This document shows positions 1,496 through 64,000 of a stretch of 64,000 nucleotides of DNA, one piece after another (within the stretch, counting starts at the first letter, position 1; each line of letters starts with the position of its first letter). Source of the stretch: Diospyros lotus (Eukaryota; Streptophyta; Magnoliopsida; Ericales; Ebenaceae); assembly GCF_014633365.1 (NCBI RefSeq), contig NC_068346.1:35403191-35467190 (forward strand). The letters run 5' to 3'. The notes below the pieces were generated by a model. It was not told where the DNA came from and made no database searches. It worked only from the letters and a program-made list of their open reading frames with translations. The position numbers and the translations under genes were made by a program.

Positions 1496-1835
1496 ATACC
1501 ACGTATCTAACTTTTCTACTGTAGCAACTTTGCAGGAGGCATAGAAAAAACTTCCTTCTAGATCATTCTCTTCAGAAAAGTTAGCTCAATGACTTTGTTT
1601 TAAGTGGCAAGACTTTTCTTCGTGTCCGAACTTTTCATAATTTCGGCACTGTGGTTTTCCTTTAAACCAAGAGTCCTTCTCCAAGTGACTTTTTCTTTTA
1701 CAAATTCCACATTGAGAATTCTTGCCATTATTATCGACTTGTTTTCCTTGACTTCCTCTATTTCTAGAATTTTCTTTAAGTTTTCTCTCATTTTTTTAAA
1801 ATTTTTGAGACTGCATATTAACTTTAGGTTGAAAG

Positions 1836-2382
1836 TGACGTGGATGAGGATGAGATGGTTTTAGCATTTTATGAAATGTGTAATTTGGGTGATTTTAAAG
1901 GCTAATTTCAAGAGAATTAGACTGAGAATTCAAAGTCACCAATTTTGCTAACGAGGTCTGTGGTGTTTCTTTTTTTGGAAAATTTCTTCGTTTAGGCCTC
2001 GAAATTAGCATTTTTGCTATTTTAGGAAATAATTGATTTGAGATTAACTTCCATTAGGGAGTGAATTTTAATATACTATTTTGGGGGATTTTATTTATTT
2101 CCATTTAACTTTGATCCTGTAATGAAAACTCAATCTTGCCTTTTTGGTAAGATTTGGGTTTTAGGGTTTTGGGATTTTTTTTAATTTCCTAATCGTTGTA
2201 GCCTATAAATACTATGTTTATAGGGGTTGATTTGAAAGTTCCAATAAAATTTCTGTTGACATTTTCTCCATAATTCTCTTCAATTTTTCAGTATTCTTTA
2301 GAATCAATGAATCATTGATTGAGTCCTATAATCCGGCATTCGTTAGTGAATCAACGGGTTTTAGAATGCTTCCGCTATGTCA
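1836..2382 (+). mobile_element. Solo-LTR-like insertion in copia gag (copy A)
   Basis: A 547-bp insertion beginning TG and ending CA. It has a TATA-like tataaatac and a downstream AATAAA in plus orientation. It splits the copia gag zinc-knuckle region. Flanks are gaaag on the left and aaacg on the right; the cleaner sister copy at 30623 has gaaag and aaaag. The copia copy at 32.2 kb keeps the uninterrupted target, which proves the insertion. Confidence 0.75.
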
Positions 2383-2960
2383 AAACGGCATTATTCGTGT
2401 CAATTTCATAATGCCTTTCTAATCTTTGTTCATGAGCTTCTAGTGAACCCATTAATTTTGCAACTATTAATTTGTCTATATCTTTAGACTCCTCAATGTC
2501 TACAATAATCGGGTCATATTTTTCTGTACATGTAATTAGAACTTTTCCAAAAATTTCATCTCCATAAGTTCTGAGTTGATTTACCACTTCATCCACCCTA
2601 GAGTAATATTATTTTGCAGTCTTAGAATCTTTCAATTTTAGATTTTCAATTAAACTTCCTTCTCAAAGTTTGAAGTTTGCAAGTTCGTACCTTGTCACTG
2701 CCGTTGAACTCCTCCTGCAACTCATCCCAAGTCGCTTTTGCAGTTTCTGCTCCCATGATCCTCGAAAAGTTTTCATCGGTCAGGCTTATTTGTAGAGCTA
2801 GGAGAGATAGAGAATATTTTTGTTCATTCTTTTTTAGTTCCTTCTTTTATATTGCAGATAAAGTGAAAATATAATCTAGGTTAGTGTACCCATTATTAAC
2901 GACTTCCCACAAATTTTGGGCACAAAAGTACGTCTTCATTTTTATAGACCAAAAATCATA
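2383..2960 (-). pseudogene. copia gag N-terminal fragment
   Basis: Minus-strand coding resembles copia gag (UBN2-type), including a block starting MDEVVNQLRTYGDEIFGK. Stops and frameshifts separate the pieces, and the ORF runs into the solo LTR at 2382. The primer binding site lies just upstream at 3049-3060. Confidence 0.7.
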
Positions 2961-3048
2961 GTTGTTGCCGTTAAAAGTTGGAATTGGAATGGATGAGCGG
3001 AATTCATCAAATATTGTGTAAGCTTATGCCCAATAAATATCGAACATA

Positions 3049-11851: not shown

Positions 11852-12253
11852 TGTTGAGATTTGTGATATTTTTCTTTAATTAAAGTTGGTTTAATTTTCT
11901 ATTTTTCATTTAAGTCTCCACCGTTATATTTTTCATTTTTAACCGAAGTTTGACATTCAAATTTGGAATGCAAAACATCCCACATTTAAAGTTTTATTTA
12001 TAGCTTTTCAGTTTTTATTTGATGGATGTTATGTATTTAAGTTCTGTATAAATAGGACTTCATTTTTGTCTTTTGTACGTACAAGTGTGATATTTAACGT
12101 GATTTTTCAATTTAATAAGAAGAAGTTATCTTTATTCAAGTTCTTGTTTTCTTCTTCTCACATTTTCTTTTTATTTTTGTCTCCTTTTTTAAACATAACA
12201 TTGAGACTTTACTATTGGTTCTGTAATACCTTCCTTTATTATTTTTTTCAACA
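11852..12253 (+). mobile_element. copia 5' LTR
   Basis: A 402-bp LTR with short inverted ends TGTTGA/TCAACA, followed directly by the primer binding site. Confidence 0.8.
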
Positions 12254-12254
12254 G

Positions 12255-12265
12255 TGGTATCAAAG
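12255..12265 (+). other. Primer binding site (tRNA-iMet type)
   Basis: TGGTATCAAAG starts two bases after the LTR end and closely matches the complement of plant initiator tRNA-Met. Confidence 0.75.
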
Positions 12266-12331
12266 TCTTAGATTTAAAAGAGTTGTGATTTTGTTTTATA
12301 GAAAGAGAATTCCAATTTTATACTTTACAAC

Positions 12332-12790
12332 ATGTCTTCTAATTTTGGTGTTTCCACCCCCACCCCAATTTAATGGTGACAACTACCAAATTTGGGTTGT
12401 TAAAATGCAATCCTATCTCAAAACACTTGGCCTTTGGGATTTTGTTTTGAATGATGTTGATCCTCTAGCATTGGGAGCAAATCCAACCTTGAATCAAATA
12501 AGACAACATGAGGAGAAGGCTTTATCTTGTATTCATATTGTTTTATCAAATCCTATTTTTGCTAGGATTATTGAGTGTGACACGGCCAAGAAAGATTGGA
12601 ATAATTTGAAAGAGGAGCTTGAAGGAAGCACAAGAGTGAAGACTGTTAAATTCCTAACTCTCAAAAAAGAGTTTGAGATGTTGAAGATGAATGATTCAGA
12701 GTCTGGGAAAGAGTCCAAATCAAATTAGCTAGTGAAGATTTTCCAAATCAAAGGGTTGTGGAAAAAATAATGGTAAGTGTCTTTGAAGAT
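12332..12790 (+). pseudogene. copia gag N-terminal region, frameshifted
   Basis: Starts at an ATG near 12332 (MSSNFGVSTPTP). It shifts frame within a few codons into FNGDNYQIWVVKMQSYL, a UBN2/copia gag block. The frame stays open to about 12728, then is cut by the CACTA insertion. Gag packages the element RNA in active relatives. Confidence 0.75.
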
Positions 12791-31649: not shown

Positions 31650-32252
31650 TCACAGAATGGCACAAGAAGGACCACCATCGTGGTCGATGGCAATGGCGAC
31701 AAGCTGACATTCTGTGCAATGGCAGTAGGAAGGAAGAGGCTTTGGAGATTTGGGTTTTGGATCTGGTTTCGATGGACCAACACTGATGATCTCTGCTGCC
31801 TTTCCAGTCTTCCTCACTTGCTTTGTCAATTTAACTGCATCAACTTTCCCCGCCACTGTAAGTGTCTCCTTGTCACCATCCACCGATACCTGTTCAATAC
31901 CACGTGGACGAGTCGTGCTACAAATTTTGCAGGAGGCATAGAAAAGACTTCTTTCTAGATCATCCTCTACAGAAAAATTAGCTTGATGACTTTGTTTTAA
32001 ATGGCAAGACTTTTCTTCGTGTCCTAAACTTTTACAATTTTGACACTGATTTTCCTTTAAACCAAGAGTCCTTCTCCAAGTGACTATTTCTTTTACAAAT
32101 TCCACATTGAGAATTCTTTCTGTTATTATCGATTTGTTTTCTTTGACTTCCTCTATTTTTAGAATTTTCTTTAAATTTTCTTCCACTTTCTTTAAATTTC
32201 TGAGACTGCATATTAATTTTAGATTGAAAAGCATTATCTGTGTTAATTTCAT
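31650..32252 (-). pseudogene. Chimeric ORF: copia gag zinc knuckle fused to HIPP exon 3
   Basis: A 200-codon open frame. The first ~115 residues are copia gag, with a zinc knuckle CQNCKSLGHEEKSC and LKQSHQANFSVEDDLE. The rest is complete HIPP exon 3 (31650-31900): VSVDGDKETLTVAGKVDAVKL, Pro/Lys linker and CaaX box CAIL. The join at 31900/31901 coincides with the intron 2/exon 3 boundary of the HIPP gene. The HMA loop with CxxC is absent. Only the N-terminus is out of the usual gag frame. Whether it is translated is unknown; it could simply be two pseudogenes that happen to be in frame. Confidence 0.65.
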
Positions 32253-49784: not shown

Positions 49785-50794
49785 TGTAATACTCCATATT
49801 CGTATGAGGTTGCCACATAATTTCGATAAGTTTAGAATACCGAAAAATTGGTTTGATAGCAGTTATACGTACCGAACCAATTGCATGGAATGCCTTGGAG
49901 TGAAATTATCTAAAGAAAATGATATGGTCTCGATAGGCGTTCCAAGTTAGGATTTATGGTGGCAAAAGAAATCAGATCGGGAATGATTTTCGATACAGCT
50001 AAAATACAACTGCCATTTAGGCTGAAAAACCGAATCATTGTAGGAGGCTCCCGAAAAATCAACGAAACCCTAGGGGGGCTCTGGTTTTGTGTAATGAGCA
50101 ACCCTTCGGTGGTCTCGAGATGAAATGACAGCCCGGTAAGGACATTGGAGTAAAATCATCATATCGAGTAAAATTTAAGCTATTAATTATGAATTCTCAG
50201 TATTAAAATGCAAGTTTAATCGGTGTTTGAGGGCATAGTTGCAATAAGAAAATTACCCAAGTGATATTATGATAAAATTGGAGTTTAATGTATAATTTCT
50301 CTTAATTAAAAGTGTAATTTTCCTTTTGTTGGTGTATTATATAATAGCCATATATACGCATGTGCGTGGCCAGCTTTTGAGAAGCATTAATGGCCGCGAT
50401 TTTGGGCTGCAATTGGATGATCATGGCAGCAGGATTTGAGGAAAATGGTTGCAGCGGGATTTAAGGAGGTTGGAAGCAAGATTTAAGGGATTATGTTATT
50501 AATGTAATGTATAATATATGTGTGTGTGTGTGTGCGCGCGCGCTCGTTGGGAAGCAAGCATGGCTGCCTATAAATAGGCAGCAGTTTGGGCATGGAGAAG
50601 CACCAAGAGGGAGCTCGAGAAAGAAGGCGAGAGAGAGAGAGAGAGAGCATTGAAGCAAGGCCGAGTTTCGGCCATGGCAGCCACGGCCAGAGGAAGTGGG
50701 CAGCGAGCGGGTGGTTCGCGGTAAGAGGCAGCTTGCTGGTGGCGACTCGAGCGGGTGCCAGTGGTCGTTGAAGCGATCGGAGAGGCCAGCGAAG
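49785..50794 (+). mobile_element. LTR fragment, probably Ty3/gypsy, with promoter
   Basis: Starts TGTAATACTCCATATTCG exactly where homology to 7940 ends, an LTR-like start. Near its end it has a TATA box (TATAAATAGG, about 50570), preceded by a TG/CG alternating tract (about 50517-50542) and followed by a GA-rich leader (50630-50648). It is interrupted at 50794 by the Athila-like element, so the rest lies outside the window. Overlapping minus-strand ORFs here are compositional. Confidence 0.55.
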
Positions 50795-52829
50795 TGACTG
50801 CACTCCCACCCTGCAATTAAAACACAAAACAAAACACAATAAAAATTTTATATTTTTTTCTTTGTTTAGGTGAGAGGTTTATACTCGTCAGTGTACGAGT
50901 GCAGTTGTAGTCCAAATTTAAATTTATATTTTCTGAATGAGTCCAGGTCGTCCACTGAGAGATTTATTTATGGCAAAATAAAAAGAATGTCACACAAGCA
51001 CACACGCATTTGGATAAATTGGCAACAAGATTTTTTATGGTTTTTTAAACAACAGATACTAGGAAATAAATTAAGGCAGTAATTGAAATAAATACTTTAA
51101 GTGAGAATATAAAATTGGATAGTACTTGAGTTAAGACAATTTCAGTGCCAACCCGTTGATTCCCAAATTTTAGCATAAAAGATTAGCAACATTAATTTAA
51201 TTTCAGATATGAGGGTTTGTTATTAAATGCAATTAAAGATGATGATAGTTCTAGGTTAAGCAATCCCCATACATGATATGCGGGATTCTAATTTAAGCAA
51301 CCACCATAAATTCAATTGCAATTAATACACAAAACAACTAAATTAATCATTCGGGTTTGGGTATGATAGCGTTTCCAGTTCTAGTAACTCTCATACATGG
51401 CATGAAAGCTCTAAGTTAGGCTTACGCTCCAATCCAAACCTAGTGATTTCTCAATAATTAAGATACACTCATATTGAAATTTAAATTAATGTTACTTATT
51501 TAAAGCGCAGCTTTCTTTGGGAATCATTGGCGTTGGACACTGTCCTTGCCTTAACCCAAGATTAGATTTAGCTACTCATTTCCATTTAAAAGTTAATTGA
51601 CATGAATTTAAACGACGTAATTTAAATAACAGAATTTAAATGACAAGAAATTTTAAAGGCATAAACTAACCGGCCATTTAGGCGGTGGATAATTAAATAA
51701 CAAGAATTAAAATTGCAGAAATTTAAAGGCATAAACTAACCGTCCATTTAGGCGGTGAATAATTAAATGACAAGAATTAAAATTACAGAAATTTAAAGGC
51801 ACAAATTAACCGGTCATTTAGGCGGTGAATAATAAAGTAATAATAAATGATATAAGAATTTAAAAGAAGAAAGGAAGGAAGTAAGATCACAAGAGAGAAT
51901 ACTAAAGAAAAGGGGAAAGAACAAGAACAATTCTCAAAGAGAGAATTATAAGGAAACAACTAAACTTTGATTCAAGAATAATAATCACACTTACAAATGC
52001 AATCAAGTGATCTATTTATAGGCCACAAGATGCAATACAAACCACACAATTTCAATTATTCAACTAGACATAATTATATCTAATGGGCACTCACACACTT
52101 AAAGTTAAATAGATTTTAGCTATAATACACACCTAATATTAAATGGATTTTAGCTAAAATACATACCTAATAAAGCATTCATAAAGTTAAATGGATTTTA
52201 GCTATAATATCCACCTAATAGTTAAATGGATTTTAGCTAAAAAACACACCTAATAAAGCTCTCACATAAAAAATAAAAATAGATTTCTATAAATTGGTTT
52301 TTAATCTTCATTAGGATTAAAAATAATCCTTGGGCCTTCTCCAAATAATATCTTCCATGGGTTGCTCAAATTGGGCCTTAATTCTTCATGGGCTTGAATT
52401 CTTCATGTACTTGAATTCTTCATGGGTTTGATTTCTCCATGGATTTGATTTCTTCATGGACTTGAATTCTTCATGGACTTTAAGTCTTCATGGGCTTTAA
52501 TTCTTCATGCCTAAAAAAACATAAAAATAATTTAATGTTAATAATAAATTATATATTATATATATGTATTACACATGGCACATATATATATTATATTATA
52601 TTGTATATATATTACATGAATGCATATAATGATGTATATGTATTATATATAATTTTATATATTATTATTATTATTATTAAATTTTACTTTAAAATTTCAT
52701 TTCATTCATTTTTCAATTTAAACTTGCATATAACCATAAAATATATATTAATATCTAATTTAAACTATTTTTAAGATCAAAAGAAGGGTATAATTATAAC
52801 AAAATTTTTATAAAATTAACCACTAATCA
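50795..52829 (-). mobile_element. 3' LTR of the Athila-like element
   Basis: 2035 bp; on the minus strand it starts TGATTAGTGG and ends GAGTGCAGTCA (TG...CA). It contains three tandem repeat blocks: ~66-70-bp units around CCATTTAGGCGGTG (51655-51835), units around TGGATTTTAGCTA (52103-52264) and 15-bp CTTGAATTCTTCATGG-like units (52386-52510). Confidence 0.9.
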
Positions 52830-52842
52830 TACCCCCCAACTT
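52830..52842 (-). other. Polypurine tract
   Basis: The minus strand reads AAGTTGGGGGGTA immediately before the 3' LTR, the expected second-strand primer. A second very similar motif (CAAGTTGGGGGGTG) lies at about 54261-54273. Confidence 0.75.
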
Positions 52843-54648
52843 AAACATTGCTAGTCCCTTAGCAATTAGATTATACACCTGCTAAACTTTATTCACAATA
52901 ACTGTATGAATGTAAAATTTTCAAATTCGAAATCGAAATGCATAAAATTAAATAAATAATTTAGCATTCTAAATCAGATTTTTGGTTAAAGGTCATACAA
53001 TCTCAGGAATGAAAATTAGGATAACCAACACACAGACTTACTCCCTCGAAGTTTTGACTTCAAATCTTACTATGGATTTTCTCTCCAATAAAAAGGATTC
53101 CTCAAGTGTACACACAAGGGGGTGCACCGTTATAAGAGTAAATGCAGAACAAATTCAAAACTCGGTGCCATCCCAAATACAAGGAATGTATTTTCATGAA
53201 AGAACAGGGAAATTGACATAGCTTCATAATTGGAATAATGCTCTAGATGAGTAACTTCTGAATTTAAACATGATTCCCTACTCCAAACTCGAATTCTGAG
53301 ATCACATGATTTATAGCATCAAAAGGGACCAGACTGGGTTGTAATGGGGCTATAAGGTTAATACGGGTTGTCAAAGAAAAGGTAGAGTGTGCAAAGGGTG
53401 TGTCGGTATTTTTTTTTTTTTTTTTTAGCATTCATTTTGAAACAGTTATGCTGAATAACTAAGAGAATTTGCCCCCCTTTTTTTTCACTTTTTTTTTCTT
53501 TTTTTTCTCTTTTTTTTTTCTTTTTCTTTTTAAATATGAAAATAGATAAACAGACTAATTCCCAAAATCACACCAGGTTGGATAAAATTCATATGGTTAT
53601 GGGTTAAATGAGGGTAACGAAAGAAGTTGTACTACAAATGGCTCAAATGGGCTAACAAGAGGTTGATTTAAAGAAAAAAAATAGGCTCAAAATGAAAGAA
53701 ATTGATCCCCCTATCATGCTTCTCAGTCATCTAATTCATAGTTTGAAACCAGTCAAATTCATCTGCTATCATACTAGACATTCAAAGCGAATTAATATTT
53801 TGAAGCCATTGAAAAGATAAGATAAACAAGAGAGCATATTTAGAGTAAGTGTTATTTCACTCAGAATTAACGGTTATTAGGCTCAAACACTCACTTGGGT
53901 AATAGTCTCCACTTCTGTTGAGGGATCATACAGTGTACTAATCAGCTAATTACTGTTACCTTTGACTTTATGACCGATAACCAATTTCTAAATTTTGAAT
54001 CCCTGATGAATGTAAATTACTTATTCTCATGCATAAACGTTTTCAAATGAGAAATCAATGCATTCATGTTTCGTATTGCAAACTTAACCGGCTATCAGTG
54101 CATAACTTTAAAGCTTTAGGAATAGCATTATTTAAAACACATAATAATTTTTTTTTTTTTTATAAGAGCAGATAAAGACAATCAATTCCCACAAGACTAC
54201 AAACTAGTAATTACAAACTCACAGTTAAATATAAACCAGATGATTCATGACTAGACCTTACACCCCCCAACTTGAATTGCAGTAATAAATCAGGGTTGTT
54301 AGGAATACCTGTAACTCCACAAGTCCATAGATTTGCTGTGAACTGCTAAAACTTAAACAACAAATGAGCACACCATATATATATATTTATATTTTCACAC
54401 CAAAATAAAAATTTCATGCAAGTCATAAGATAAGCAAAATGCGTCTCAAGAGTACAAAAAGTACTCCTTACTCAGCCATCTTATCAAAGACTTTGCTAAC
54501 AACATTCCACAGTTTTGTTTTTTTTGTTTTTTTTGTTTTTTTTTAAAGAACACAACCAAGAAAAATTTTGCAAGTTGTACAATAACTAGATGCGTCTCAA
54601 GAGTACAAAAAGTACTCCTTACTCAGCCATCTTAATAAAGAGCATTTC
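52843..54648 (-). other. Non-coding 3' region of the Athila-like element
   Basis: No gene seen. Contains a poly-T tract (53407-53530), a PPT-like motif at about 54265, and two 50-bp direct repeats (54441-54490, 54589-54640) that echo a stretch of the 181-residue ORF at 55622-55680. Confidence 0.6.
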
Positions 54649-55308
54649 TCACAGTGATAAATCTAAATTAATCGGACCTCTTTGGCGCTTGTTACTAATT
54701 GCCTTAGACCAGTCTATCCGAGGCTCACGAGGATCGTACTGTGGAACATAAGCATGTAATTTCTCTAGCAGCTTATCAATGGTGGATGCAGAAATGAGAA
54801 TCTTTCTTGCTGAACGAGAAATGAACTGTTGGTCCACAGCCTGATCAAGAAAAGAGAGTAACCCATCGAAAAAATGGTTAACATTTAAAAGTCCAATAGG
54901 TTTGGTATGGAGATTACTCTTGGCCCAGGAGATTATACAAAAGATTTCTTCAAGTGTTCCAAAACCTCCCGGTAAAGCAATGAAGGCATCTGACTGATAA
55001 ATCTTACAAGCCATGCGCTCAGACATAGAAGTCGTTTCTATAAGTTGACCGCGTGTAATCCCGGAAATATGTGGTTCAGCTAAAGGGATTGGCATTATAC
55101 CTACCACAGATGAATTTTCAAGATGTACAGCTTGTGAAACATAACCATTCAATCCACGACTTCCCCCTCCATATACCAAATTAATTTTTTTCTCTCCTAA
55201 TTTTTTACCAAATTCGCTCGCTGCAAGTGCGTAACAAATATCGCTCCCAAGTTGAGAACCACAAAGTACACATATGGTATTGATTCGACGAACTAACTGG
55301 CCTTCCAT
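54649..55308 (-). CDS. LOG-type cytokinin riboside 5'-monophosphate phosphoribohydrolase
   Basis: 219 residues, close to the usual plant LOG length. A Rossmann-like lysine-decarboxylase-family fold is indicated by ICVLCGS (12-18), INLVYGGGSRGLNG (42-55) and the signature PGGFGTLEE (113-121), with the conserved Arg at 98. LOG enzymes release active cytokinin bases from their nucleotide precursors in cytosol and nucleus. The frame is uninterrupted, whereas plant LOG genes normally have several introns, so it was probably acquired as cDNA. It lies 167 bases after the 181-codon ORF, inside the retrotransposon between integrase and 3' LTR. Activity and expression are not shown by sequence. Divergence from typical plant LOGs looks considerable by eye. 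Confidence 0.85.
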   Translation of the reverse strand: MEGQLVRRINTICVLCGSQLGSDICYALAASEFGKKLGEKKINLVYGGGSRGLNGYVSQAVHLENSSVVGIMPIPLAEPHISGITRGQLIETTSMSERMACKIYQSDAFIALPGGFGTLEEIFCIISWAKSNLHTKPIGLLNVNHFFDGLLSFLDQAVDQQFISRSARKILISASTIDKLLEKLHAYVPQYDPREPRIDWSKAISNKRQRGPINLDLSL

Positions 55309-55475
55309 GTTTGTTCCTTTTGTATGTCCTGAAAAGAAGTTTGGCGATCAAAAGTAGCTATACAACAATTCAACAAGAAATAAATACAAACAAAAATTAT
55401 GCGTATATATAAGTAGTTGTGATTGTGGCTCACATCTTCCTCTGGTTTTACGTCCAGAAACGGCTTAAACACTTT
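55309..55475 (-). other. Spacer between the two cargo ORFs
   Basis: 167 bases, no recognisable signal. The LOG ATG is preceded by GGAACAAAC, an acceptable plant start context. Confidence 0.4.
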
Positions 55476-56021
55476 CTATGAAGCGGGGATAAGCTTCCCA
55501 TCCAATTTTCTTATAGATTGGCAAACAGGGTCGTTTTTAGTCAGATTCCCAAGACTATAGCGTTGGTGGTCACTTCTGAACTGGGTCCATAAAGCAAGAA
55601 GTTCTCTTTGCACTATTCCACATGGATGCGTCTCAAGAGTCAATCGGATATCATCCAGAGACTCCTTACTCAATCCATCCTTTATGAAACTAATTTTATC
55701 TTCTCGATTTATGGACGTAAACCCCACAGATTTGCATCGTGTGTTACAGGTCCATCGAGCACATTTGTAACAACCATTCACTCTTTTCGCTCTTCTTTTC
55801 TTCGCAAAACTACTCTTCCCTAAGCCTGGAAAATGCTTAAAACTAGGTGAAGTTTCACCAGCTAATCGAACTTTTGCTTCGATCAGCCAACGAATATCTT
55901 CAGGGATGTTATTAAGCATCAACAACCTAAGTCTTTCACACCTAGCAACATAAATTTTTTTCAAATCATTCTGCGGGAGAGATGGATAGTACTTGTGAAT
56001 TTTTGAGAGATAAAGATCCAT
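55476..56021 (-). CDS. 181-residue basic Cys-containing ORF, viral NABP-like core
   Basis: Uninterrupted, not a standard retrotransposon protein. The N-terminus is helical-looking and rich in Leu/Arg (residues 18-55). The core is GKSSFAKKRRAKRVNGCYKC (68-87) continuing to Cys92 and Cys96 (C-x2-C-x4-C-x3-C), then FIKDGLSKE (112-120). The order GxSxxAKKRRA, basic patch, zinc-like cysteines and FIxxG recalls the nucleic-acid-binding (cysteine-rich) proteins of carlaviruses and relatives. The cysteine spacing is shorter than theirs, so homology is only suggested. No membrane segment or signal peptide is evident. It sits between pol and LOG. It could instead be an unrecognised host-derived or env-region ORF. 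Confidence 0.6.
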   Translation of the reverse strand: MDLYLSKIHKYYPSLPQNDLKKIYVARCERLRLLMLNNIPEDIRWLIEAKVRLAGETSPSFKHFPGLGKSSFAKKRRAKRVNGCYKCARWTCNTRCKSVGFTSINREDKISFIKDGLSKESLDDIRLTLETHPCGIVQRELLALWTQFRSDHQRYSLGNLTKNDPVCQSIRKLDGKLIPAS

Positions 56022-56925
56022 TTTTTTTTTTTTTAACTATACTAAGAAGAAAGTAAAGAACTATAAACTTTACAAAAGGGATGAGAGTACCTGATCGGAG
56101 AATAACACAAAGGAGAGAAGACTGAGCTCAAGAAGGGTGGCTTGCCTTATACAGATATGGAGTCTCTTATAGAGCAATGACCATAACTATTTTACACTCG
56201 GCTCGAGGCATGCCATAATTATAGGGTCAGGCTTAGCGTCTCTTTTTCAACGTTTGGTGCCTCATTTTTCAACATTTGGCAGTGTGCCTTATCCTTTATA
56301 GGGCAGTGTGATTGCACTGCCCAAGAAAAGATAGCTACCACCAGCGTCAATTCTGTCTCTCTCAATTCAAATTTTTTTTTATATTATTATTTTATTGTTT
56401 TTTTTTAATTTTTTTATTCTTATTCTTATTATTATTATTAATTATTTTATTTATTTATTTTTTTTTAATAAATGTTTTGTTTTAGGGGCCCAATAAAATC
56501 ATACATACCACACAAGACAATATTATCGAGTCTAACAAAATTATTTGCACAATGGATCAGTTTCAAACACCAATAAAATCAAGTACACCTTACATTGTCC
56601 TCAATCGACAATAAAAGGATAGAAGATAGGCATACCTGGTGGTCTTCAATGCATGAACTCGTATGCAAAAAAAAATTATTTAGACTGCACACAGAGAAAC
56701 ACTATTTGAATCAAAGTTAATTAAGTAATGCAAAAAATGAACAACTTATATATATAATTCTTTATTATTTTATTTTTATTTTATTTTATTTTATTTTATT
56801 TTTTTCTTTTTTTATTTAATTTTTTTATTTTTTTATTATTTTTTTTCAGATCTATAAACATCCATTTAACCTAAATGGAAAGGTGGTCTTTTAACGTCAG
56901 ATTCCCAAACGATAGGAAACTTTCC
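56022..56925 (-). other. Non-coding spacer between pol and cargo ORFs
   Basis: About 900 bases with long T-rich tracts (56370-56470, 56757-56850). No ORF. A polypyrimidine-rich stretch may be a leftover of the region where an env-like ORF would begin. Confidence 0.5.
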
Positions 56926-58013
56926 CTACTCATCAGATGATGATGGATCATCCAAATCCACAACTCCTTCATTCTCCTCAACACTACCCTGGTATGGTTT
57001 CAACCTATGACCATTGACTGTTAGAAGCTGTCCTGACTCCGGATTTTCTATCTCAAATGCCCCATATCCTGAGATGGACTTGATTACAAAGGGGCCAACC
57101 CATCGAGACTTCAATTTTCCTGGGAATAGATGCAATCGAGAATCATACAAGAGTACCCGTTGCCCTACCTGAAAGCTTTTTCGAATGATGTGCCGATCAT
57201 GTAACTCTTTCATCCGACCTTGGCCAATCGTGCATTTTCAAATGCTTCATTTCGAATTTCCTCAAGTTCATTCAATTGGAGCTTCCTAGATAAGCCTGCT
57301 TCAGTTAGACTCTTGTTGATCTTATGAATTGCCCAATATTCTTTATGCTCAATTTCCACCGACAGATGACAAGATTTACCGTATACTAGCCTATAGGGAG
57401 ACATTCCCAAAATTGTTTTGTAAGCTGTCTTGTACGCCCAAAGAGCGTCTACTAGTCTTAAGGACTAATCCTTACGATTAGCAGCAACAGTCTTTTCCAA
57501 TATGCGCTTAATCTCCCTATTGGCTAGCTCAGCTTGACCATTGGTTTGGGGATGGTATGGTGTTGCAACCTTATGCAGTACACCATATTTCTTCATTAAT
57601 CCTGCCACAACTTTATTACAAAAATGGGAACCCCCATCACTGATGATTGCTCGTGGCATCCCAAATCAACTGAATATGTTTTCTTTCAAAAATTTCACGA
57701 CAGTCCTATGGTCATTTGTTCTGGCCGGGATTGCTTCTACCCATTTAGACACATAGTCAACAGCAAGTAAGATATATTCATGACCAAATGAATTGACAAA
57801 TGGGCCCATAAAATCCATACCCCAACAGTCAAAAACTTCTAACACTTGGATCAGATGTAATGGCATCATGTTTCTCCTTGACAGACTTCCTAACCTTTGA
57901 CATCGATCGCAATTTGAACAGAACTTGTACACATCCTTGAACAGTGTCGGCCAATAAAATCCACTCTGAAAAATTTTGCAACTGTTTTCTTGACAGAAAA
58001 ATGGCCTCCACAT
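56926..58013 (-). pseudogene. Integrase of the Athila-like element, decayed
   Basis: Continues pol in a shifted frame after about 58010. Contains the zinc-binding CSNCDRCQ, catalytic Asp in WGMDFMGPF, Asp in SDGGSHF and Glu in [15 protein letters not shown], and a C-terminal GKLKSRWVGPF block ending at 56926. Two in-frame stops (57666-57668 TGA, 57465-57467 TAG) and two frameshifts (near 58010 and 57212) break it. Catalytic residues are still recognisable, so decay is recent. Any mobility would need proteins in trans. Confidence 0.85.
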
Positions 58014-61000
58014 GCAAGAGTATGACTGAAATTGATGACACTTTGTTGCTCATGATCGGGTATGCATCTACGGATGATTTGGTCAGGACAATACTTGAAG
58101 AGGTAGGGCTCATCCCAAAAGAAGGTTCTGACTTTTCTGAAGAATTTATGCCTATCTTGCTTACTCCAATGGTCTGGGATCAGACCAGTTGCCAGGTAGT
58201 TCGCAATGTCGGCATACCAAGGGACAACAGATGATGCACGAATAACATTTACTTTAAACAGTTGCTCATCAGGGAAATTGTCATGAATTGGTTCATCAAA
58301 TTGTGTGAGATCTTGACTTGGAATCCTTAACAAATGGTCAGCCACCACATTTTCTACTCCCTTCTTGTCTCTGATTTCAATGTTGAACTCTTGCAGGAGT
58401 AAGATCCATCGGAGCAGACGGGGTTTTGCATCTTGCTTTGTGAACAAATACTTCAGAGCAGCGTGATCAGTAAAAATGATCACTAGTGACCCTACGAGGT
58501 AAGATCGAAACTTGTCCAGGGCAAAGACAACTGCTAGTAACTCTTTCTCTGTAGTGGTGTAATTCTTTTGTGCCTCATTAAGAGTTTTGCTAGCATAATA
58601 TATCACATGAGGTTTCTTATCCTTCCTCTGCCCTAACACAGCTCCTACCGCGTAATCACTAGCATCGCACATAAGTTCAAATGGGAGGGACCAATCAGGG
58701 GACTGAATGATAGGTGCTGAAATGAGTGCATCTTTCAATTTATCAAAAGCATTTTGACAGGTAGGACTCCATTCAAACGGAACATCTTGAGACAACAAAT
58801 GGCACAAGGGTCTTGTTATGGTGCTAAAGGAAGCAATGAATCTCCTATAAAACCCTGCATGTCCCAAAAAACTTTTGATGTCTTTCACATTCCTAGGGAT
58901 GGGGAGTTTTTGAATTGTTTCAATTTTTGACCTGTCTACCTCCATCCCCCTAGATGAAACGATGTGCCCCAAGACTATGCCCTGTTTCACCATGAAGTGA
59001 CATTTTTCCCAATTGAGTATCAGATTTGTTTCCTCACATCTTGCTAAAACCTTTTTCAGATTCTCCAAACAGGCCTCAAAGTTACTTCCATAAACAGAAA
59101 AGTCATCCATAAATACTTCAACAATCTGCTCAACCATTTCACTGAAAATGCTCATCATACACCTTTGAAAGGTGGCTGGAGCATTGCATAACCCAAATGG
59201 CATGCGCCTGTATGCAAATGTCCCAAATGGACATGTGAAAGTTGTCTTCTCTTGATCTTTTAGTGTAATTTCTATCTGATTGTACCCTGAGTAGCCATCT
59301 AAGAAACAATAGTAGGCTTGGCCTGCTATTCTCTCCAGAACTTGATCCAAGAAAGGCAAAGGAAAATGATCTTTCCTTGTCACAGAATTGAGCTTTCTAT
59401 AATCAATGCACATACGCCATCTTGTCTGGATGCGCGTGGGAATCAGTTCATTGTTCTCATTTTTTACAACAGTGACTCCAGACTTTTTGGGTACTACCTG
59501 TGTTGGACTTACCCACTTAGAATCAGAGATTGGGTAAATTATTTCAGCATCCAATAGCTTAAGCACTTCTTTTCTGACAACTTCTTTCATGTTGGGATTT
59601 AATCTCCTTTGCATTTGCCTAACTGGTTTTGCTCCTTCTTCCAAGAATATCTTATGAGTACAGATCAAAGGGCTAATACCTTGCAAATCTGAAATGGTCC
59701 ATCCTAATGACTTCCTGTGTGCTTTTAGAACTTCTATCAGTTGTTGCTCTTGCTGAGGTGTCAAACTTGAAGAGATCACCACTGGGAATGCTTCCTCTTC
59801 TCCTAGAAAGACATACTTCAAATCACTGGGCAATGGCTTTCTCTCAGGCGTGGACTGATGGCTATCAGGAGCCATGAGCTTACTGTCCAAGTTCCTTAAT
59901 GGCTCTAAACCAGGCATCCGTGTAGGCTTCTCACTTTCTTTGCTTATGACTTCCACTTCTTTTATTTCTTCAAGATCTTGATTTCCTTCTTTGGGTCTTC
60001 TCATGAACTCTTCAAAACAGTCATTGGTCAGTGTTTGGATCAAGTTTACCTCCTCCACTTCACTCTCAGTGTCCTGATGTTTGGCTACCCTGAAGATATT
60101 CATTTCTACAGTCATGTTCCCAAAAGATAGCTTTAACACACCATTCCTACAGTTGATGATGGCATTTGATGTGGCAAGGAATGGTCGACCTAAGATGACT
60201 GGCACAGGAGGTTGAGGCCCCTGATGCGGCTGGGTGTCCAAAACGATGAAGTCCACTGGAAAGTAGAACTTATCGATTTGTACCAGAACATCCTCCACAA
60301 TTCCTCGTGGAACTTTGACTGATCGATCAGCCAGCTGAAGGGTCACTCTAGTGGGTTTAAGCTCACCTAACCCCAACTGTTGATACACACTGTATGGCAA
60401 CAAATTGACACTAGCTTCTAAATCCAAGAGTGCCCGATCAACCTTTTGACTTCCTATGATGCATGTAATGGTTGGACAGCCTGGATCTTTGTATTTGGGA
60501 GGAGTTTTCAATTGGAGAATGGCGCTGACTTGTTCAGTCAAGAATGTCTTTTCATGCACATTTGTTTTCCTTTTGACAGTGCACAGATCTTTCAAAAACT
60601 TTGCATATGAAGGTGTTTGTTTGATTGCATCCAACAGCGGGATGTTGATTCTCACTTGCTTAAACACTTCATATATATCTGCATTTTGTTGCTCTTTTTT
60701 CAAATGATTCAACATTTGTGGAAAAGGTGGTTTGGGCCTGTATTGAATTTCTTTCTCATCTTCTTTTTGTTTTTCATTTTTCTCATTTTTTTCATTTTTT
60801 TCATTTTTTTCATTTTTTTCCACGGTGGATTCATGATCTTTTGGTTCTTTTTCTTCATCAACATGTTGGTTTATCCTAGGATCAGTTGGTTTCTCAATTA
60901 TTCTTCCACTTCTTATGGCAGTCACTGCTTGCACTTGTTCATGAGTGTTGGTTTCACTATTTGAAGCTTCTACCTGGTTGGTTTGCCTAATTGGGTTAGG

Positions 61001-61774
61001 ATTAGTTTGGGATGGAAACCTCCTGGGTTCTCTCACACTCAATGTTTGTGTTATCTTGGTCAACTGGCTCCTAATGTCTTCTATGGCTCTGTTTGTTTGG
61101 TCTTGATTTTTGACAAGCTGAGCAACCTGATTATTGATAACTGTTTGACTTTGGATGAACTGGTGCAAGGTATCTTCCAAAGATCTCCTATGAGGAGGTT
61201 GGTAAGTATTGGATGAAGAACCTTGATTTTGTTGGAAGGTATGTTGTTGTGTAGGGAAGGGAGGTTGAGAATGATTTCCAGAATCATTTCTCCAAGAAAA
61301 ATTGGGGTGATTTCTATTATTGGGATGGTATGAATTGTAGTTTTGATTATTCCCATAATAGGCTCCACTTTGATTTTGATTTTGTCTCCCCTCAAAGTTG
61401 TGTGAATGATTGTTATTAGTCTGCCCATACAATACCTCCTTGAAAGCAGGTAGGGTAGGACATTCTTCAGTTGAATGATCTGTTGCATCACACACAGCAC
61501 ACTTTACTTCCACTTGATTAACAGATTGCACCTTTTTGGGTTGCATGTTTTCAACTTTCTTTGTTAAAGCAGTTAGTCTTGCATTTAAATCGTCACTCTC
61601 ACTCAGTTGGTATCTCCCTCTAGGTTGTGGATTTTCTCTTGAATCAAGAGCAGATGTTGGACCAACTTCCCAGTTCCTTGTATTCTCAGCCAATGTGTCA
61701 AAGAAGTGGAAAGCTTCTTCTGGAGTCTTCTCATAGAATTCTCCATTGCACATTGTAGAAACTAGCATTTTCAA
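57890..61774 (-). pseudogene. gag-pol polyprotein, main part (gag C-term, PR, RT, RNase H)
   Basis: About 1294 codons in frame with the upstream gag ORF but separated from it by one TAA (61775-61777). Order: zinc knuckle CAVCDATDHSTEEC (residues 92-105), acidic/Lys-rich linker with EKNEKN repeats, retropepsin-like region (ALLDLEASVNLLPY), RT (CIDYRKLNSVTRKDHFPLPF; EVFMDDFSVYG), RNase H (FELMCDASDYAVGAVLGQ; FTDHAALKYL) and the start of integrase. The protease motif is DLE rather than the usual D-L/S/T-G. It leaves frame in the integrase N-terminus at about 58010. Confidence 0.9.
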
Positions 61775-62422
61775 TTAGGGAGTGAGTGAATCATGAAAGA
61801 AACTGACCACTCTCCATTGCTCAAAAGCATGGTGCGGACAAGTGTGAAGAAGGTCTTTAAACCTTTCCCACGCTTGCGCAAAATTCTCATTTGGTTTACA
61901 GGCAAAGTTCATGATTTGTCTTTGAAGAGTAGCAGTTCTGTTGGCAGGGAAGTATTTTTTTAAGAAAGTTGTTTGCATTTCTCTCCAAGTTCCTATAGAT
62001 CTAGGTGGGAGAGTGCTTAACCATATTTTTGCCTTATCTTTCAGTGAGAATGGAAAGAGTTTTAATCTTATGACATCCTCATTTGTTGTATGGTCCATGC
62101 AAGTGCTACATACTTCCTCAAATTCTTTCATATGAGTATATGGATTTTCAGAATCCATGCCATGAAAAGTTGGCAACAATTGGATTGTGCCAGGTTTGAA
62201 GTTAAACCTATGATGATTGATGGGAAGAATAATGCATGAGGGGGTTGTCTGCCTAGGAGGATGAAGATACTCCCTAAGGGGTCTGATCATCTCCTGATCA
62301 ATGGGATCAGGGTCACCGTGGTCACTACCACGTGCAGACATGTTCTGTGGAAGTGGCATGTTCTCATTGTGTTGAGACATGAGTGACTGATTTTCTACAG
62401 TTTTACCTGACCTAAGTATCAT
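61775..62422 (-). CDS. gag N-terminal ORF (capsid region)
   Basis: 215 codons beginning MILRSGKTVENQ. It contains the retrotransposon gag capsid block (RLKLFPFSLKDKAKIWLSTL, FLKKYFPANRTATLQRQI, ENFAQAWERFKDLLHTCPHH). It ends at a TAA after HDSLTP; the next codon continues the same polyprotein frame (about 61774 onward). The stop may be a disabling mutation or a readthrough site. Confidence 0.85.
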   Translation of the reverse strand: MILRSGKTVENQSLMSQHNENMPLPQNMSARGSDHGDPDPIDQEMIRPLREYLHPPRQTTPSCIILPINHHRFNFKPGTIQLLPTFHGMDSENPYTHMKEFEEVCSTCMDHTTNEDVIRLKLFPFSLKDKAKIWLSTLPPRSIGTWREMQTTFLKKYFPANRTATLQRQIMNFACKPNENFAQAWERFKDLLHTCPHHAFEQWRVVSFFHDSLTP

Positions 62423-62538
62423 ACACTATGCACAAATAAAAATAAAGTAAAAAGAAACAGAGTTACCGAATTTATCAGGAGATGCTTCTTCTTATATATA
62501 TATATATATATTTTTCCTTTTTTGTTTTTGCCTCAATC

Positions 62539-62556
62539 TCCCCGACAACGGCGCCA
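62539..62556 (-). other. Primer binding site (tRNA-Asp type)
   Basis: The minus strand reads TGGCGCCGTTGTCGGGGA, 18 bases that match the tRNA-Asp-type site known from Athila elements except for one T/C difference. It lies five bases from the 5' LTR. Confidence 0.85.
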
Positions 62557-62561
62557 AAATT

Positions 62562-64000
62562 TGACTGCACTCCCACCCTGCAATTAAAACACAAAACAAA
62601 ACACAATAAAAATTTTATATTTTTTTCTTTGTTTAGGTGAGAGGTTTATACTCGTCAGTGTACGAGTGCAGTTGTAGTCCAAATTTAAATTTATATTTTC
62701 TGAATGAGTCCAGGTCGTCCACTGAGAGATTTATTTATGGCAAAATAAAAAGAATGTCACACAAGCACACACGCATTTGATAAATTGGCAACAAGGTTTT
62801 TTATGGTTTTTTAAACAACAGATACTAGGAAATAAATTAAGGCAGTAATTGAAATAAATACTTTAAGTGAGAATATAAAATTGGATAGTACTTGAGTTAA
62901 GACAATTTCAGTGCCAACCCGTTGATTCCCAAATTTTAGCATAAAAGATTAGCAACATTAATTTAATTTCAGATATGAGGGTTTGTTATTAAATGCAATT
63001 AGAGATGATGATAGTTCTAGGTTAAGCAATCCCTATACATGATATGCGAGATTCTAATTTAAGCAACCACCATAAATTCAATTGCAATTAATACACAAAA
63101 CAACTAAATTAATCATCCGGATTTGGGTATGATAGCGTTTCCAGTTCTAGTAACTCTCATACATGGCATGAAAGCTCTAAGTTAGGCTTACGCTCCAATC
63201 CAAACATAGTGATTTCTCAATAATTAATACACACTCATACTGAAATTTAAATTAATGTTACTTATTTAAAGCGCAGCTTTCTTTGGGAATCATTGGCGTT
63301 GGACACTGTCCTTGCCTTAACCCAAGATTAGATTTAGCTACTCATTTCCATTTAAAAGTTAATTGACATGAATTTAAACGACGTAATTTAAATAACAGAA
63401 TTTAAATGACAAGAAATTTTAAAGGCATAAACTAACCGGCCATTTAGGCGGTGGATAATTAAATAACAAGAATTAAAATTGCAGAAATTTAAAGACATAA
63501 ACTAACCATCCATTTAGGCGGTGAATAATTAAATGACAAGAATTAAAATTACAGAAATTTAAAGGCACAAATTAACCGGCCATTTAGGCGGTGAATAATA
63601 AAGTAATAATAAATGACATAAGAATTTAAAAGAAGAAAGGAAGGAAGTAAGATCACAAAAGAGAATACTAAAGAAAAGGGGAAAGAACAAGAACAATTCT
63701 CAAAAAGAGAATTATAAGGAAACAACTAAACTTTGATTCAAGAATAATAATCACACTTACAAATGCAATCAAGTGATCTATTTATAGGCCACAAGATGCA
63801 ATACAAACCACACAATTTCAATTATTCAACTAGACATAATTATATCTAATGGGCACTCACACACTTAAAGTTAAATGGATTTTAGCTATAATACACACCT
63901 AATATTAAATGGATTTTAGCTAAAATACATACCTAATAAAGCATTCATAAAGTTAAATGGATTTTAGCTATAATATCCACCTAATAGTTAAATGGATTTT
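62562..64000 (-). mobile_element. 5' LTR of the Athila-like element (cut by window end)
   Basis: 1439 bp visible, aligned with 50795-52235. About 18 differences by eye, mostly transitions plus one 1-bp indel. The remaining ~600 bp should lie beyond the window. Confidence 0.9.

Follow-up and report, generated by a model that had tools for sequence, protein, structure and literature searches.

LOG genes in plant retrotransposons

Extra open reading frames (ORFs) of plant long terminal repeat (LTR) retrotransposons mostly have no known role. A 2011 abstract by Steinbauerova et al., cited by the authors of the Citrus and Populus study named next, reportedly speaks of 'two Athila-like elements ... 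LOGL4'. YgdH/LOG domains have been described in Gypsy consensuses from two species of Citrus, and Populus joins them when the filter is relaxed (PMC9289625), so that the presence of LOG in Gypsy elements is already known. When plant genomes were surveyed for sequences of RNA viruses in 2011, the one plus-strand case reported was the replicase of a betaflexivirus, in cucumber (PMC3136472). The stretch of DNA analysed here, called the window, comprises 64,000 nucleotides of Diospyros lotus (assembly GCF_014633365.1, contig NC_068346.1, positions 35,403,191 to 35,467,190 of the forward strand). It holds most of an Athila-like Ty3/gypsy element that carries, between integrase and 3' LTR, a gene for a viral-type nucleic-acid-binding protein (NABP) followed by a LOG-family gene.

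Elements with this NABP-then-LOG cassette form a high-copy group, and the chances seem about even that the pair is a host-manipulation cassette serving the element. The two ORFs are linked, selected and testable, and persist without pol. An earlier note, made from the letters of the window alone, had read the LOG gene as a captured hormone-activating gene and knew of no described LOG-carrying family. That interpretation is partly supported; the second statement falls with the Citrus and Populus elements, and the NABP ORF at 55476-56021 had been overlooked.

The NABP-LOG cassette

The LOG ORF runs uninterrupted from ATG to stop over 219 aa, contains PGGxGTxxE and matches PF03641 with E 2.9e-33 over 130 residues, above the curated cut-off. 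Its nearest solved structure is At2g37210 (2a33, E 3.9e-51), and its top protein match, 96% identical, is annotated LOGL10 in Diospyros lotus. The NABP ORF (181 aa) matches PF05515 Viral_NABP with 35.4 bits (cut-off 23) and PF01623 Carla_C4 with 21.1 bits (cut-off 20.9), both families of cysteine-rich nucleic-acid-binding proteins of carla- and vitivirus-type viruses. Among 32 aligned NABPs, the window's included, 29 match Viral_NABP and 28 match Carla_C4. The sequences have a basic stretch and then a Cys cluster, whose spacing we take to be shorter than in the viral proteins. Viral cysteine-rich proteins (CRPs) suppress RNA silencing, and CVB p12 is a transcription factor causing hyperplasia (PMC12172455).

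NABP is matched by 527 proteins at E <= 0.001, and species among the best 120 of 527 include Populus, Orobanche, Xanthoceras, Acer and Rhamnella. In three Orobanche gene models (P0044, P0071, P0105), a single predicted protein contains both an NABP and a LOG domain, showing that the two are close neighbours there. Records of 8723, 4511 and 2128 bases (all above 2 kb) turn up in both the NABP and the LOG match lists, which is a hint only, since record sizes too short for both genes (734, 873, 905) also recur in both and chance coincidences thus occur. The 4511-base record stands beside Populus rows in the LOG and NABP trees alike. A scan of viral contigs with NABP gave seven pattern matches, with no relative among them.

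Structure and class of the element

The element is a complete Ty3/gypsy element of 13.8 kb on the minus strand (64594..50795), and window positions 50795-64000 make up most of its length. Its features are as follows (classes A to C are described in the next section).

50790..50794, no strand: target-site duplication (TSD) CTTCG, second copy past the window at 64595-64599
50795..52829, minus: 3' LTR, 2035 bp, TG...CA, from LTR comparison
52830..52841, minus: polypurine tract-like stretch adjoining the 3' LTR, read from the sequence
52842..54648, minus: non-coding stretch from LOG to the 3' LTR, part of a block common to classes A and B
54649..55308, minus: LOG-family ORF, 219 aa, PF03641, from the ORF list, Pfam and the solved-structure match
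55329..55330, minus: AG of a 3'-splice-site-like signal of putative use, 20 nt before the LOG ATG
55476..56021, minus: NABP ORF, 181 aa, Viral_NABP and Carla_C4, from the ORF list and Pfam
56022..56944, minus: AT-rich spacer between integrase and NABP, containing an edge of the exchanged block
56945..58013, minus: integrase region, with stops and frame changes in the window copy
57890..61774, minus: pol frame with nucleocapsid (NC)-like part, aspartic protease, reverse transcriptase (RT), RNase H and start of integrase, from ORFs and Pfam
61775..62422, minus: gag (PF03732), closed by an in-frame stop in the window copy
62405..62406, minus: GT of a putative donor-like CAG/GTAAAA at gag codon 6
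62539..62556, minus: primer binding site, complement of what we take to be the tRNA-Asp 3' end
62562..64594 (62562..64000 in the window), minus: 5' LTR, 2033 bp, running 594 bp past the window end

The LTRs are 98.3% identical, start with TG, end with CA and have CTTCG on both flanks. Their 19 transitions and 6 transversions over 2029 compared sites give a Kimura two-parameter (K2P) distance of 0.0124, or an insertion age of ~0.5-0.9 Myr at the rates we assume (1.3e-8 and 7e-9). Because the LTRs match and the TSD stands on both sides, an assembly join is disfavoured; this and a single-copy LOG, which the earlier note had named as ways in which it could be wrong, are ruled out by the LTRs, the TSD and the many genomic copies. 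The note's placing of an intact LOG ORF in a minus-strand Athila-like element with matching LTRs stands. Gag, RT-RNase H, integrase and cassette ORFs lie on the same strand, and in the window copy gag and integrase are broken while LOG and NABP are open.

The domain order between the LTRs is that of Gypsy: Asp_protease_2 (below cut-off), RVT_1, RT_RNaseH, Integrase_H2C2 and rve (below cut-off). The primer, presumably tRNA-Asp from the match of the binding site, fits a non-Met primer. No second RNase H stretch is found among Pfam matches at E up to 1 (for the interrupted integrase, in the first frame scanned); an additional RNase H marks Tat, not Athila, and tRNA-Asp is among the primers used by non-chromoviruses (PMC6317226). 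The ATHILA ORF-1 domain PF03078, absent from the Pfam matches of the five scanned frames, is not a required feature and is found in 16% of Athila elements (PMC6317226). By domain order, absence of an additional RNase H and primer type, the element is classified from its sequence as Athila-like Ty3/gypsy of the OTA clade.

Both LTRs contain tandem arrays, one of 17 bases (AATTCTTCATGGACTTG, 7.6 copies) at 52380-52509 and in the matching 5' LTR part past 64000, the other of 70 bases (3.1 copies) at 51622-51840 and 63388-63606. Directly downstream of LOG, 54439-54633 holds two near-identical short stretches (AAGATGGCTGAGTAAGGAGTACTTTTTGTACTCTTGAGACGCAT) with an inverted AGTACTTTTTGTACT core. Elsewhere in the window, a copia-type gag remnant lies at 12066-12728 on the plus strand (Retrotran_gag_2, E 1e-12). 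A 200-aa ORF at 31650-32252 on the minus strand combines a zinc-knuckle, copia-gag-like part, seen by eye, with an HMA stretch (E 7e-4, below cut-off), and ends in CAIL, which we take to resemble a prenylation box. It is possibly a retroelement piece beside or within a HIPP-type gene.

Copies and element classes

The genome searched measures 630 Mb in 43 contigs, of which 15 span 33-54 Mb and a sixteenth 7.4 Mb. First-look candidates numbered 926 with PF03641, 864 with NABP DNA and 1030 with LOG3 protein; scoring covered the top 150, 40 and 150 of these, respectively. All of the best 150 of 926 PF03641 matches span profile positions 2-131 and 149 have no internal stop, which agrees with the earlier proposal that LOG travels with the element. 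Each of the best 40 of 864 NABP matches covers all 546 bases of the query or all but one of them. The best 150 of 1030 LOG3 matches cover nearly the whole query in a single frame and are 46-49% identical to it, with one stop in 9 of the 150, and no host LOG exons of Diospyros lotus ranked among these places.

A LOG-chosen set of 48 loci (8 + 40, the 40 out of 122 of the 150 PF03641 matches) gave 45 copies, the window's included, after duplicates were merged (L001=L010, L004=L011, L007=L012). Since the PF03641 ranking biases these copies toward LOG, 20 NABP-chosen copies were added from the top of the 40 NABP matches, omitting places already in the LOG-chosen set. Both genes are present in 45/45 and 20/20 copies. 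In the LOG-chosen set, LOG is open with ATG and free of stops or frame changes in 37/45, NABP in 37/45 and both in 31/45; with the start codon ignored, the numbers are 38, 40 and 34. The NABP-chosen set has LOG in all 20 (once over 480 of 660 bases), intact in 12.

Class A, to which the window copy belongs, includes 16/45 copies with pol or parts of it (an RT fragment in 14) and 16/45 without pol. In fifteen of the 16 pol-less copies, the 5' LTR plus 158 bp leads into ~1.27 kb and then into the spacer, NABP and LOG, and protease, RT and integrase are all missing; the remaining copy, L044, is a separate pol-less deletion form whose LOG has no ATG. Both ORFs are open with ATG in 9/16. In the four pol-less copies read (L019, L036, L041, L047), a shortened gag/NC-like frame lies within the ~1.27 kb, at ~1740-3020 (LOG oriented forward). 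It is open over 431 codons between stops in L047 and broken in L019, L036 and L041, and it possibly encodes a packaging protein of the non-autonomous element. Class B comprises 13/45 copies, with DNA identity to the window of 90-92% for LOG and 92-95% for NABP. Its RT, ~77% identical, is seen in 5/13; none lies in the fetched stretch of 3/13, and for 5/13 the stretch is too short. In the four class C copies read, protein identity is 86-87% for LOG and 88-89% for NABP, and both ORFs are open in 4/4.

Selection on LOG and NABP

Pairwise ratios of nonsynonymous to synonymous divergence (dN/dS) were obtained by the NG86 method, and branch omega from parsimony counts set against the neutral N/S for kappa 3, with neutrality p values at kappa 6; the branch tests treat the counts as independent. 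From class A to B, dN/dS is 0.26-0.28 for LOG and 0.26-0.27 for NABP. From class C to A and B, it is 0.22-0.30 for LOG and 0.14-0.16 for NABP at dS 0.24-0.49. Values within class A are 0.38 with pol and 0.22 without pol for LOG, and 0.30 and 0.41 for NABP; within class B, NABP has 0.46.

Across the 45 copies, internal-branch omega is 0.32 for LOG (p 9e-6 against neutrality) and 0.38 for NABP (p 0.003), and terminal-branch omega is 0.60 (p 0.025) and 0.73. RT, from 19 copies, has 0.09 internal and 0.38 terminal. The NABP-chosen set with the window copy gives LOG 0.28 on internal and 0.76 on terminal branches. With a codon model applied to all branches, using rows without in-frame stops after projection, omega is 0.40-0.45 for LOG (41 rows) and 0.55 for NABP (40 rows). 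These figures show that both genes have been kept by purifying selection, where the earlier note had allowed that other LOG copies might prove interrupted and neutral. In pol-less copies alone, such selection is indicated and not established, because few changes fall on internal branches (LOG 3 N and 7 S, NABP 3 N and 5 S).

Exchange between pol lineages

The window copy and the class B copy L011 differ at 91/131 fourfold sites in RT-RNase H, 14/89 in LOG and 9/62 in NABP, and closely similar figures come from the other four class B copies that have RT. In windows of 300 bases, compared for L011 and its downstream neighbour L050 only, identity is 70-81% in pol, 85-86% in the spacer, 89-96% in NABP-LOG, 81-93% in the non-coding part up to the 3' LTR and 41-76% in the LTR. 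Pol and LTR divergence thus far exceeds that of the cassette, and a block of ~3.9 kb, non-coding sequence included, has a far younger ancestor. On this site-by-site comparison, the NABP-LOG pair has demonstrably been exchanged between two old pol lineages; recombination between co-packaged RNAs would be the ordinary explanation.

Active site of the LOG protein

In CgLOG, catalysis is proposed to depend on Arg99 together with Glu122, and the adenine/prenyl site is lined by Met96, His97, Lys100, Glu121, Glu125 and Trp129 (PMC4979012). Residues were counted in CgLOG numbering over 107 element-type and 8 host-type rows. Arg99 and Glu122 each occur in 104/107 element-type LOGs, both also in the window copy, and the machinery for hydrolysis looks intact. 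Glu121 (104/107), Met96 (100/107) and Trp129 (104/107) are retained in the pocket, whose positions 96/97/100/125/129 read M, S, M, C and W in the window LOG. The product is predicted to be a phosphoribohydrolase of the LOG family, with cytokinin as its reaction product unproven.

Origin of the element-type LOGs

The LOG tree has 118 rows, namely 113 of the best 120 of 7844 homologues (7 outside the length range were dropped), the window and four PDB chains, with two bacterial chains read as outgroup and a midpoint root as drawn. One clade (100/95) unites 107 element-type rows from the window, Populus, Malvaceae (the family being our assignment), Xanthoceras, Orobanche and Rehmannia. The host group has nine rows (100/96): AtLOG3, At5g11950, Forsythia LOG7, two from Apium, and one each from Heracleum, Nyssa, Papaver and an unnamed source. 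The sample is biased to relatives of the window, with long branches and with element location not established row by row, and it holds no host LOG gene from the Diospyros lotus genome, because host exons did not rank among the LOG3-query places.

Rosid and asterid element-type LOGs in one clade apart from host LOGs make the capture look old. As far as this sample goes, a single ancient acquisition is favoured over a recent capture. Host LOG genes contain introns and the element LOG has none, in line with the earlier note; a recent capture of a host LOG mRNA is not supported. LOG labels are found on transposon-type proteins, as with LOGL10 in Diospyros lotus and similar labels on Populus proteins. 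Some plant 'LOG' gene models may thus be transposon genes, and counts of the plant LOG gene family may be inflated. The available part of a paper on LOG evolution has no mention of 'retrotransposon' (PMC11593424).

Proposed role and alternatives

A pyrimidine-rich stretch ending in AG lies close to the LOG ATG in classes A, B and C. The AG is present in 45/45 copies and in 4/4 class C copies despite a nearby insertion, which leaves CTTTCAG/G-type sequence upstream of LOG. A similar stretch with AG precedes the NABP ATG in the window copy and the four class C copies. Besides the donor-like site in gag of the window copy, CAG/GTAGAA occurs in 15 pol-less class A copies. Spliced expression of env-like ORFs has been described (PMC7264820), and putative spliced expression of NABP and LOG is plausible but unproven.

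In the mechanism proposed, NABP and LOG would be expressed from spliced RNAs through the acceptor-like signals before each ATG. NABP may bind element or small RNA and blunt silencing, or it may have a nuclear role like viral CRPs. Cytokinin promotes cell division, and LOG might free a base, active cytokinin or a relative, which drives cells toward division. The two effects together would give more permissive dividing cells for copying of the element. A cassette that raises the number of such cells would be selected in the element lineage and not for the host. The pair, its many copies, the linkage, the selective conservation, the persistence without protease, RT and integrase and the exchange between two pol lineages are established by comparing copies; the manipulation of the host by this cassette is judged an evenly balanced matter. 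A wider proposal is possible but leans toward doubtful. It holds that Athila-like elements have carried a virulence-type module, composed of a viral silencing suppressor or nuclear factor and a hormone-activating enzyme, since before the rosid-asterid split or by transfer between the two groups. This module would move between lineages, be mobilised in pol-less elements and manipulate host proliferation and silencing as tumour-inducing microbes and DNA viruses do.

Several results count against a host-manipulating cassette. Within class B, LOG dN/dS is 0.78 (at dS only 0.015), LOG is broken in 8/20 NABP-chosen copies, terminal NABP branches are compatible with neutrality (p 0.21), and the contrast between internal and terminal branches is weak (Fisher p 0.04 and 0.08). 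Together with the youth of the window copy and the relaxed terminal branches of LOG, these figures would suit NABP and LOG as functionless hitchhikers amplified from recent intact copies. That explanation is improbable and is disfavoured by the low internal-branch omega (0.28-0.38), also in the NABP-chosen sample, by the low ratios from class C to A or B, by the retention of both ORFs in pol-less elements and by the single LOG clade across plant orders. The predicted NABP structure is poor (pLDDT, a local confidence score, 63.8; pTM, a global one, 0.29) and gives no fold tie to viral NABPs. An in-frame gag-LOG splice fusion was rejected as a general rule, the join being open in class A and closed in class C by a stop before the ATG. 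In the pocket, Lys100 is replaced by I/L/M in 97/107 element-type LOGs (K in 8) and Glu125 by H/Q in 88/107 (E in 7), against K and E in 8/8 host-type rows. With this Lys and Glu mostly replaced, cytokinin may not be the product; the changes weaken the claim of a cytokinin monophosphate substrate and leave the LOG family assignment unaffected.

LOG could accordingly hydrolyse another nucleotide, for instance in salvage or in removal of an immune nucleotide signal, with a metabolic or anti-immune gain. This is rather unlikely, given that Met96 and Trp129 are retained in the pocket, the top solved matches are plant LOGs and no alternative substrate is indicated. The maintained, host-type enzyme might also suggest a cassette that serves the host, with cytokinin or antiviral genes domesticated and then dispersed through the element. 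This is hardly credible; selection at the level of the element fits the many near-identical dispersed copies, the relaxed terminal branches, the broken copies and the forms without pol. Host LOG mRNAs captured recently and separately in several plants would explain an intronless ORF of full LOG length, and the tree has only nine host-type rows for comparison. Such repeated capture is nonetheless very unlikely, as the 107 element-type rows form one clade beside the host group, the pocket changes are common to them and the same NABP partner occurs in the Orobanche gene models.

Comparison with known systems

If the proposed functions hold, the cassette offers a direct way to ask whether retrotransposons turn the hormone and silencing pathways of their hosts to their own spread, and it would suggest gene traffic between positive-strand RNA viruses and plant LTR retrotransposons. 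No report of NABP/CRP genes in LTR retrotransposons was found by title or abstract opening among the papers listed, in a literature search thin on subscription journals, and the available parts of two papers on plant LTR elements (PMC11963269, PMC11728184) mention neither carlavirus nor nucleic acid binding. The literature searched likewise held no record of the linked viral-type NABP, the lineage exchange, the pol-less carriers or the widespread pocket change.

The closest described systems are the LOG/YgdH Gypsy elements of Citrus and Populus, which are alike in being Gypsy LTR elements with a LOG-family extra domain. The available part of their description, however, includes no NABP, selection, exchange of pol lineages, pol-less forms or pocket changes (PMC9289625). 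Among the best 120 of 557 NABP matches, none bears a Citrus name. The Gypsy elements of Phalaenopsis similarly retain an extra enzyme ORF, for an AlkB RNA demethylase, a domain that also occurs in Betaflexiviridae; theirs is a different enzyme, a single gene and in that study seen in Phalaenopsis only, whereas the elements described here pair a virus-type with a hormone-type gene (PMC9289625). The element NABP resembles the NABP/CRP of carla- and vitiviruses in its PF05515 and PF01623 matches and in its basic stretch followed by a Cys cluster, as compared through Pfam profiles, but it is encoded by a retrotransposon. The element LOG has the full domain, PGGxGTxxE and the catalytic Arg and Glu of plant LOGs such as AtLOG3 and At5g11950, yet it differs from them in forming a separate clade with an altered adenine/prenyl pocket and in being multicopy and mobile.

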